This document shows positions 33,352 to 39,379 of a DNA stretch of 64,000 bases, piece by piece. Source of the stretch: Hydrogenophilaceae bacterium (GTDB lineage Bacteria > Pseudomonadota > Alphaproteobacteria > Caulobacterales > Aquidulcibacteraceae); assembly GCA_013389015.1 (NCBI GenBank), contig JACAEE010000119.1, positions 1-64,000 of the forward strand. The letters run 5' to 3'. Numbering within the stretch: position 1 is the first letter of the stretch; each line of letters opens with the position of its first letter. The position numbers and the translations under genes are program-made. A model generated the notes under the pieces. The model saw only the letters and a program-made list of their open reading frames with translations. It had not been told where the DNA came from and ran no database searches.

Positions 33352-34236
33352 TCAGCCCGCGAGCAATTCCTTCATCGCCCGCCCCATGGCGGCGGGGTGC
33401 GGCGCGATCTTGATCCCGGCGGCCTCCATGGCGGCGATCTTGGAGCCGGCGTCGCCCTTGCCGCCCGAGATGATGGCGCCGGCGTGGCCCATCCGCCGCC
33501 CCGGCGGCGCCGTGCGCCCGGCGATGAACCCCACGACCGGCTTCTTGCGCCCCCGCTTGGCCTCGTCGGCCAGGAACTGCGCGGCGTCCTCCTCGGCGGA
33601 GCCGCCGATTTCGCCGATCATGATGATCGCCTTCGTCTCGTCGTCGGCGAGAAAAAGCTCAAGCATTGGAATGAATTCCGTGCCCTTGACCGGATCGCCG
33701 CCGATCCCGACGGCGGTGCTCTGCCCCAGTCCTTCCTGGGTCGTTTGAAAGACGGCCTCGTAGGTCAGCGTTCCTGATCGCGAAAGCACCCCGATCGCCC
33801 CCTTGGCGAAGATATTGCCGGGCATGATTCCGATCTTGCAGGCGCCGGGCGTGAGCACGCCCGGGCAGTTCGGCCCGATCAGTCGCGACTTTGACTTTTC
33901 CAGCTTGGCTTTCACCCGCACCATGTCGAGCACGGGGATGCCTTCGGTGATGCACACGATGAGCGGGATCTCCGCGTCGATCGCCTCTTCGATCGCGGCG
34001 GCGGCGCCGGGCGGGGGGACATAGATCACCGTCGCGTCAGCGCCAACCTTCGCCTTCGCTTCGGCCACGCTGTTGAACACCGGCAAGCCGAGATGCGTCT
34101 GCCCGCCTTTCCCTGGCGACACCCCGCCGGTCATCCGCGTGCCGTAGGCGATCGCCTGCTCGGAGTGGAACGTGCCGTTCTTCCCCGTGAAGCCCTGGCA
34201 GATGACGCGAGTCTCAGCATTGATCAGAATGGACAT
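33352..34236 (-). CDS. sucD: Succinyl-CoA ligase alpha subunit
   Basis: 294 residues. The CoA-binding Rossmann domain begins [40 protein letters not shown] follows, and the phosphorylated histidine is in [13 protein letters not shown]. It forms the catalytic alpha subunit with SucC, interconverting succinyl-CoA and succinate with nucleotide phosphorylation. In most alphaproteobacteria it is the direct neighbour of sucC. Here the two are separated by about 3.9 kb carrying genes on both strands, so it needs its own promoter, presumably in 34237-34383. Confidence 0.97.
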
Positions 34237-36922: not shown

Positions 36923-37561
36923 TCACTCCGTCGGCGCGGGCGCCGTGCTGGGCGTCGCCACGATGCTGAGGATCATGCCCGCGACCGTGTCCGGCGCCGC
37001 GCCGTCCTGCCGCTGCAGATACATGTGCCGGAAGACGGCCACGCCCGGCATCGAGGGCGGGTTGGTCCAGACCTGCGAAATGAAGCGGTTCGGCTGCTCG
37101 CGCCAATCGTCCGCCGCGACCCCCACCCATTCGCGCACCAGCGCGCCGGGCACGGTCTGCGGCGCATCGAATGCATAGAACGCGCAGCCGATCACCTCTT
37201 GCCCGCGATTGTCATAGTTCGAGAGCGCCAGAAAGCCGCGCTCCCCGCCGACGATCTCCCGCGAGAACAGCCGGATCGCGCGGATCGTCATCCCTTGCGC
37301 CGCAAAGCTGCGCGCCTGCGCCATCACCCGCGTCAACTCCGGGCGATCGCCGACCTCCGCCTCCGCCCAGCCCTGCGCCTGGGCCGCCGCCTCGAGCGTC
37401 GCGTAGCTTGCGCGCGCCTCGACGCAGACGTCTTGAAACGCCGTGAACCGCGGTTCCGGCGCCGGCGCCGCCCCGCTGTCCTGCGAGTAAGCCGGCGCCG
37501 CGGCCAGCGCCGCCGCGACAAGCCCCGCCCACACGCCTCGCACGCCTTTCTGTCCCGTCAT
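36923..37561 (-). CDS. Secreted protein of unknown function
   Basis: 212 residues from the ATG at 37561 (an in-frame upstream start at 37597 lacks a ribosome-binding site). The signal peptide ends about APAYSQ. The mature part opens PRFTAFQDVCVEARASYATL and contains two further hydrophobic/aromatic strands (REIVGGERGFLALSNYDNRG, VIGCAFYAFDAP), with a pair of cysteines that could form a disulfide. I do not recognise the family. It is transcribed toward the lipoprotein operon and is divergent from the UrcA gene. Confidence 0.7.
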   Translation of the reverse strand: MTGQKGVRGVWAGLVAAALAAAPAYSQDSGAAPAPEPRFTAFQDVCVEARASYATLEAAAQAQGWAEAEVGDRPELTRVMAQARSFAAQGMTIRAIRLFSREIVGGERGFLALSNYDNRGQEVIGCAFYAFDAPQTVPGALVREWVGVAADDWREQPNRFISQVWTNPPSMPGVAVFRHMYLQRQDGAAPDTVAGMILSIVATPSTAPAPTE

Positions 37562-37658
37562 CCCAACCCAAAGAGCGGCTGCAGCGCCGTCGCGCAAGCC
37601 CGTACGGCGCCCCTAGCCCCGCCTCAGCCTCCGAACTTTTCCACAACCACCGCGCGTA

Positions 37659-37723
37659 CAGTCAATTTTGACGTTTACGTGACACTTCAATCGCTGTTAG
37701 ATGACGCTTCAATGACGGTTCCG
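37659..37723. promoter_or_regulatory. Array of 11-bp TGAC repeats (Pho-box-like) between divergent genes
   Basis: TGAC occurs in phase at 37669, 37680, 37702 and 37713, with a degenerate unit (TCGC) at 37691, so five units are spaced exactly 11 bases apart. Two of them are nearly identical (TGACACTTCAAT, TGACGCTTCAAT). Read on the minus strand the units are YGTCA followed by AT-richer bases, the architecture of binding sites for OmpR/PhoB-family regulators. It lies 35 bases upstream of the UrcA gene and about 100 upstream of the divergent secreted-protein gene. Confidence 0.6.
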
Positions 37724-37758
37724 TGTAGGGCCGCCCGTCGGAGAGCGAGGAGGAGAGC

Positions 37759-38082
37759 ATGAAACATGCAGCGCTGGCGGCGGCTTTGGCGGTTGCGCTT
37801 TCCGCGTCCGCATTCGCTGACCCCTGGGTCGCGCCGAGCGAGCGCCACGCGGTTCCCGTGAGCTATGAAGATCTCGATCTATCGCGCGCCGAGGACGCCG
37901 CCGCGCTTATCCAGCGGCTGCACTCGGCGACCCAGCGCGCCTGCGAACTACGTGAACTCGCCCAGCAAGGCCCCACCGCACGCCGCGCCGTGCGCGCCTG
38001 CCGCGACGATGCGCTCCACGCCGCGATCGAACGCATCAACGCGCCCGAAGTCACCCGCCTCTATCAGGAAGCGCGCCGCTAG
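37759..38082 (+). CDS. UrcA-family protein
   Basis: 107 residues with a cleavable signal peptide ending about SAFA. The core VSYEDLDLSRAEDAAALIQR, then LHSATQRAC and a later Cys (AVRACRDDALHAAIERIN), is the UrcA pattern, a small secreted protein family common in sphingomonads and Caulobacterales with no known activity. It starts after GAGGAGGAGAGC. The gene sits directly downstream of the 11-bp TGAC repeat array and is its most likely target. Confidence 0.85.
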   Translation: MKHAALAAALAVALSASAFADPWVAPSERHAVPVSYEDLDLSRAEDAAALIQRLHSATQRACELRELAQQGPTARRAVRACRDDALHAAIERINAPEVTRLYQEARR

Positions 38083-38118: not shown

Positions 38119-39312
38119 CTATCCGCGCACCGCCGCCACGATCTTGCGCGCTGCGTCTTCCAGATCGTCGGCGTTGATCACGTTGAGCCCGCTCTCGGCG
38201 ATGATCTTCTTGCCTTCGGCGACATTGGTGCCCTCGAGCCGCACCACCAGCGGGACTTTGAGCCCCACTTCCTTGACCGCCGCGACGACGCCCGCGGCGA
38301 GCACGTCGCACTTCATGATCCCGCCGAAGATGTTGATGAGAATCCCCTTCACCTTCGGGTCTGCGGTGATGATCTTGAACGCGGCCGAAACCTTCGCCTG
38401 ATCGGCGCCGCCGCCGACGTCGAGGAAATTCGCCGGCTCCTCGCCGAACAGCTTGATGATGTCCATCGTCGCCATCGCGAGGCCCGCGCCATTGACCATG
38501 CAGCCGATGTCGCCATCCAGCGCAATATAGGCCAGGTCGTACTTGGACGCCTCGATCTCTTTGGGATCCTCTTCGCCGAGATCGCGGAGCTTTTCCCATT
38601 CCGGATGCCGGAATTCCGCGTTCGAATCGAAGCTCACTTTGGCGTCGAGGCACACGAGCTTGCCCTCGCCCGTCACCATCAGCGGATTGATCTCGAGCAG
38701 GCTCATGTCGCTCTTGGTGAAGGCCTCGTAGAGCGATTTGAGCAACGCCTCGCATTGGCGCGCGAGATCGCCTTCGAGCTTCAGCGCGCCGGCGACCTTC
38801 GCCGCGTCCTGGCCAGTGACGCCCGCGTCCGGATCGATCGCCACCGTCGTGATGCGTTCCGGCGTCTCATGCGCCACCTCTTCGATGTTCATCCCGCCCG
38901 CGTCGGACGCCACGAACGCCACCCGTCCCGCTTCGCGATCGACGAGCGCCGAGAGATAGAGTTCGCGCGCGATGTTCGCGCCTTCCTCGATATAGAGCCG
39001 CCTCACCACGCGCCCCGCCTCGCCGGTCTGCAGCGTCACCAGCGTGCGCCCCAGCATCTGTTCGGCATAGACGCCCACATCCTCCGGCGCCTTGGCGATT
39101 CGCACGCCGCCCTTGTCGCCGGCTTCGGCCTCCTTGAACCGGCCTTTGCCCCGCCCGCCGGCATGGATTTGCGCCTTGACCACCCAGACCGAGCCGCCGA
39201 GCTTCGCGGCCGCGTCGACCGCCTCCTCGGGCGTGAACGCTGGAAACCCGCGCGGCGTCGGCGCGCCGAACGCGCGCAGGATTTCCTTGGCTTGGTATTC
39301 GTGGATGTTCAT
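38119..39312 (-). CDS. sucC: Succinyl-CoA ligase beta subunit
   Basis: 397 residues. The ATP-grasp domain begins [20 protein letters not shown], with [17 protein letters not shown] as nucleotide-binding segment, [20 protein letters not shown] carrying the metal ligands, and the C-terminal ligase domain [20 protein letters not shown] and [15 protein letters not shown]. It pairs with SucD, which is encoded about 3.9 kb downstream on the same strand behind five unrelated genes. The start at 39312 gives the canonical N-terminus. It is preceded after 67 bases by an MFS gene in the same direction. Confidence 0.97.
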
Positions 39313-39379
39313 GGGGCCCCTCGATGGTCGCGTCGTGTATGGCGGCGCGGAGCCGATGGCGCAACCGGGCGGACCCGCG

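Follow-up and report, generated by a model that had tools for sequence, protein, structure and literature searches.

In the Pho boxes of Escherichia coli the repeat units point at the regulated gene. PhoB binds 11-nt direct repeat units head to tail, the E. coli unit being CTGTCAT, and the same source names Bacillus PhoP as a repressor of teichoic acid genes (PMC4415409). According to PMC9275681, the sites of CenR in R. sphaeroides read TGA-N8-TGA and are co-directional and upstream of the -35 element in 28 of 31 cases, and two of three CenR-repressed promoters carry opposed sites. The urcA family has a described regulator of its own: according to PMC8963506, the urcA gene of Caulobacter is induced by uranium and placed under UzcRS through CATTAC-N6-TTAA, a site (m_5) acting on it from upstream of the promoter. 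In this regard, an earlier note on this DNA, which held UrcA proteins to be without known role or regulation, was right about the role, but the regulation has been described, namely in Caulobacter. Finally, the consensus printed for ChvI of C. crescentus in PMC9731502, TTGC-N3-GCAA, looks different by eye from the array described here.

The window, by which we mean the whole stretch of 64,000 nucleotides that was analysed, holds upstream of a urcA gene a direct repeat (Table 1) with TGAC at 37669, 37680, 37702 and 37713 and TCGC at 37691, all in exact 11-bp phase; the TGAC coordinates and the phase first claimed for it were all exact on recount. Throughout the 64-kb window TGAC is the sole plus-strand tetramer, out of 256, with at least four of five copies at 11 bp. 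Among dinucleotide shuffles of the intergenic region 37562-37758, 0 of 5000 reproduced four of five TGAC copies at this step and 1 of 5000 did so when every tetramer was counted; with all periods from 8 to 22 allowed as well, 0 of 1000 showed such an arrangement. Moreover, the gapped four-unit pattern matched once in the 2.97-Mb genome, its reversed control not at all. Five phased units, as originally counted, are indeed present in the window, but the core shared across genomes comprises four, at 37680-37723, following TTTACR.

Table 1. Coordinates of the array, the neighbouring genes and the candidate signals in the window.
Feature	Position	Strand	Remarks
Array, five 11-bp units (that at 37691 degenerate)	37669..37723	-	Pho-type half-sites GTCAYNNAACY on the minus strand, pointing away from urcA
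Conserved footprint, window vs same-genus species G010	37665..37722		51 of 58 aligned columns identical
TTTACG, candidate -35 (inferred)	37674..37679	+	TTTACR in 7 of 8 orthologs
TTAGAT, candidate -10 (inferred)	37697..37702	+	17 bp after TTTACG; 6 of the other 7 orthologs have TTNTAT
Likely ribosome-binding site, GAGGAGGAG	37747..37755	+	From sequence
urcA, UrcA family protein, 107 aa	37759..38082	+	TIGR04433, 51.4 bits, cut-off 25
Divergent gene, 212 aa	36923..37561	-	Faced by the Pho units in the window genome

A search with the UrcA protein in 60 genomes of the host family gave a match at 1e-5 in 19 of them, and the best match per genome at E <=1e-10 defined eight orthologs, including that of the window genome (G000); L021, a G000 paralog and the ninth match to pass this threshold (1e-11), has no such array. 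The earlier note had made its proposal depend on the repeats being kept upstream of orthologs, and phased TGAC units precede urcA in all eight, the number of exact units out of six being four in G000, G010, G011 and G052, three in G024, G047 and G055, and two in G028, whose array is poor. Among the remaining 21 urcA-family loci, which include two window-genome paralogs, L026 has two exact units and no other has more than one. An order-wide profile built from the eight orthologs listed 97 matches, from which 90 upstream regions were drawn (seven were left out), and there at least three units occur before 7 of the 8 orthologs vs 1 of the 82 other urcA homologs; among periods 7-16, the orthologs reach this number at 11 alone. 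Their alignment shows TTTACR (in seven of eight) and then TGAC-N7 roughly four times. The additional unit at 37669 recurs exactly in G010, reads TTAC in G047 and is unrecognisable in the other five non-window orthologs. Around the footprint shared with G010, the flanks are identical at 49 of 96 positions upstream and 17 of 36 downstream in a gapped alignment.

The resemblance to Pho boxes can be followed through the phosphate-transport genes of the same family. A pattern of three exact TGAC units, applied blindly, matched 28 times in 21 of the 60 host-family genomes, and its reversed control twice. From the 28 rows of this search we picked 13 loci to read on the GTCA side, and in six of them this side begins pstS (L037, L046, L055) or a pstC-like gene (L042, L043, L044); five of these six were submitted to a profile check and all five exceeded the cut-offs. 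Order-wide, a three-unit TGAC match exists in 121 of 398 genomes. Outside the host family, 1 of 40 array loci, at 300 bp per locus and with five of the 40 GTCA sides profile-checked, has a confirmed phosphate gene starting on its GTCA side, a partial phoU over the Pfam cut-off (L132); others among them have genes there that are TonB-type or of no recognised family. These 40 come from the 43 of 122 listed rows that passed a spacer A+T filter, three near-duplicates being dropped. Given the pstS and pstC starts on the GTCA side, the three-unit pattern includes the host-family Pho box, with GTCA toward pst, and surely further elements too.

The spacers of the urcA arrays were compared with those of these boxes. 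Under a model of the 10 blind pst spacers, the 22 urcA spacers of the eight orthologs, which come from genomes related to one another, score 4.22 bits, the pst spacers themselves 3.65 in leave-one-out scoring, and shuffles -1.56 +/- 0.72, with 0 of 2000 reaching the urcA value; read on the opposite strand, the urcA spacers fail the model. The 10-blind-spacer test was added because a 16-spacer model, under which urcA scores 3.55, joins to the blind pst spacers six from boxes chosen by an E. coli-type consensus (duplicates, i.e., L043, L154 and one of L153/L155, were removed, as were L150, which has no scorable spacer, and the distal L147 spacer). In the window, the blind pst model ranks the minus-strand sites at 37669 and 37702 first and second of 127,972 positions (20.9 and 19.9; the highest score elsewhere is 11.4), and the 16-spacer model gives the array sites 19.6 and 17.9, where 12 Markov nulls reached 16.4 at most. 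These ranks and the spacer shuffles support the suggestion of the earlier note that the minus-strand units of an OmpR/PhoB-type 11-bp array resemble Pho boxes. In the window genome and in G010 the pst boxes themselves are weak, differing from the E. coli-type consensus by three mismatches. PhoB was found over the cut-off in 7 of the 8 ortholog genomes and not in the window genome, which is 83.4% complete and encodes pstC. Altogether, the urcA array shares with the host-family pst boxes the 11-bp direct repeats, the GTCAY core and the AA(C)(T/C) spacer; unlike a usual Pho box it is inverted, has four to five units, may overlap a promoter and adjoins a gene that is not known to belong to the Pho regulon. 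The array is real, conserved, associated with urcA, Pho-type in sequence and inverted in orientation, all of which was computed.

TGAC arrays are also found in other surroundings. In five of nine genus g2 genomes a conserved three-unit array (L031-L035) precedes a small exported protein; its spacers disagree with the Pho model, and on the opposite side of L031 lie reading frames for a small protein and for an OmpR-family regulator. Near-identical arrays of genus g35 (L119, L121, L123-L125, L129) run into TGAAACTGATACA-like sequence and then into small-protein starts, the L119 protein having a TonB C-terminal match, and the last array unit may reach into the start codon there. Two acid-phosphatase genes of G030 and G033, L048 (PF03767) and L049, have arrays on their TGAC side, and the GTCA side of L048 shows by eye a terminator-like hairpin. 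Lastly, TGAC arrays face distant urcA-family genes in other genera and in a second family (L038, L052, L143, L144); three of the four exceed the TIGR04433 cut-off and L144 reaches 20.9 of 25 bits, and their spacers show a mixed fit to the Pho model.

Which gene the array serves has to be decided between its two sides. The downstream gene belongs to the UrcA family, as first noted (Table 1); the start of its product resembles a signal peptide by eye, two cysteines are invariant in the eight orthologs, and 76-102 bp separate the first core unit from the start of urcA (the G055 start, at about 80 bp, was placed by eye). On the opposite side the window and G010 have similar frames for a protein of no recognised family, G024 and G028 a VOC-like and G011 an oxygenase-like protein (both named by eye), and G047 and G052 the succinyl-CoA ligase alpha subunit by Pfam, about 540 bp off in G052; none was recognised in G055. 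Because this gene changes while urcA stays with the array, the latter is most likely a conserved operator of urcA, a putative role drawn from comparing the loci. The array might instead be an ordinary Pho box of the divergent gene, with urcA a mere bystander, for the GTCA units face that gene as they do in pst promoters, its start is about 108 bp from the array and a similar frame occurs there in the sister genome G010; such a reading is quite improbable given the turnover of neighbours. The divergent gene gave no match in Pfam or NCBIfam. As to the wider neighbourhood, a succinyl-CoA ligase beta-type gene (Pfam) is convergent with urcA in the window (38119-39318, minus strand), and alpha-type genes (Pfam) are divergent from it in G052 and G047 (L006, 1-840; L009, 371-1255), so that urcA seems to sit at or within the sucCD locus of the host family.

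If the array serves urcA, regulators other than PhoB have to be considered. CenR, an OmpR-family regulator of envelope genes in alphaproteobacteria, would bind TGA-N8-TGA upstream of the -35 element and activate urcA within an envelope regulon, and matrix rank, period and direction favour it: the array does contain TGA-N8-TGA at the right 11-bp step and co-directional with urcA, a matrix of 31 CenR sites puts 37669 first of 127,972 positions, the supposedly degenerate TCGC is an accepted first half-site of CenR, UrcA is exported, and a CenR-like regulator exists at C76 (L063, named by eye, NCBIfam giving none). It was dropped on spacer scores, since the urcA spacers reach -2.31 under CenR and 1999 of 2000 shuffles do equally well or better; the scoring with a CenR matrix proposed in the earlier note matches the TGAC cores and not the spacers. 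Moreover, the matrix barely splits the array (14.45) from the unrelated position 34025 (14.42), CenR sites have two half-sites as against four or five units here, and T[GC]AC-N7-TGA is absent within 300 bp of tolQ at 13 of 13 loci, a weak test with the operon start not located. We regard control by CenR as improbable. The tolQ locus L175 has a TCGC-type CenR matrix site at -104 (11.2 bits), and a loose CenR pattern matches 66 times in the window's genome vs 14 for its reversed control, a count judged uninformative because coding sequence feeds the pattern. UzcR has in its favour the described control of the Caulobacter urcA from upstream of the promoter and a metal-type regulator frame, L059, that adjoins a DegP-like gene (by eye) and scores 224.5 of 279.2 bits with the cztR/copR model. 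That the repeats are a UzcR site governing the window urcA is scarcely credible, as the array sequence differs and CATTAC-N6-TTAA has three to four mismatches at best in all eight orthologs, the same as in shuffles; a UzcR (m_5) site at the array was rejected on this ground. Among the 82 other urcA homologs the motif is exact in three (L251, L255, L270) and has one mismatch in three (L249, L256, L258), with no such match in shuffles; the urcA-family genes that it precedes, at a distance of 109-190 bp, belong to other families of the order, most of them to genus g20.

A further OmpR-family regulator could read the TGAC repeats in the direction of urcA, the likeness to Pho boxes then reflecting related DNA-binding domains. 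Several observations go in this line: the TGAC-to-gene orientation holds in all eight orthologs, TGAC arrays face the distant urcA-family genes mentioned above, some with spacers unfit for the Pho model, and the acid-phosphatase genes as well, and ten of these genomes hold 8-18 PF00486 matches each. We consider it unlikely, however, because no candidate was found, the ortholog spacers are as Pho-like as those of the pst arrays, and the sole array beside an OmpR-family regulator gene in the loci read (L031 of genus g2) does not fit the Pho model. A search for autoregulation found neither TGA-N8-TGA nor TCA-N8-TCA in the 250 bp before the frames of the eight OmpR-family regulators found in the window's genome, where the L059 frame is wrong and that of L063 too long; the names of the CenR-like, CtrA-like and KdpE-like regulators and of the DegP-like neighbour were given by eye.

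On balance we lean slightly towards a putative urcA operator made of inverted Pho-type half-sites and read by PhoB or by a regulator of the same specificity, and the binding protein would probably be PhoB itself. Judged by its sequence the element is a Pho operator, yet its orientation differs from that of a standard Pho promoter of urcA, since the units are inverted relative to the gene in 8 of 8 orthologs and the pst promoters of the host family run the opposite way. Plain activation of urcA by PhoB therefore does not follow from units that face away from it. A scan of 37500-37900 for a consensus sigma-70 promoter and a terminator found neither; the candidate promoter is read from the conserved TTTACR and TTNTAT, and TTNTA occurs in the second spacer of most orthologs. 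On phosphate starvation, PhoB~P or a regulator sharing its specificity would bind the array head-to-tail, spanning four to five units on one helix face. TTTACR and TTNTAT would form the core promoter inside the array, at a location that we infer, and because the array spans one through the other, the bound protein would most simply block it; urcA would then be expressed while phosphate is plentiful and shut off when it is scarce. By analogy, a promoter-covering array that faces away from its gene is most simply a repressor site, a reading based on the opposed sites at CenR-repressed promoters and on repression by Bacillus PhoP. Against repression, the TGAC-side arrays of L048 and L049 end in TTGACA, 17 bp before TGAATR (by eye), a position that could fit activation. 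Provided that PhoB is the binding protein, repression of urcA is slightly favoured over activation.

UrcA proteins form an exported family of unknown function, and the Pho-type array offers both a testable condition, phosphate supply, which may control urcA, and a regulator. Its presence at one ortholog group suggests that different lineages run the urcA family through different regulators. Moreover, the inverted multi-unit Pho arrays of the orthologs form a natural set for asking whether a regulator activates or represses according to the orientation of its boxes. We put forward as a tentative and still doubtful proposal that urcA is phosphate-controlled, with PhoB~P switching the promoter off from an inverted array, and that the family has been rewired within a single order between UzcR-type metal control and phosphate control. 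If this were true, metal and phosphate stress would be joined in one physiology, of which the 'uranium response' protein would be a part.
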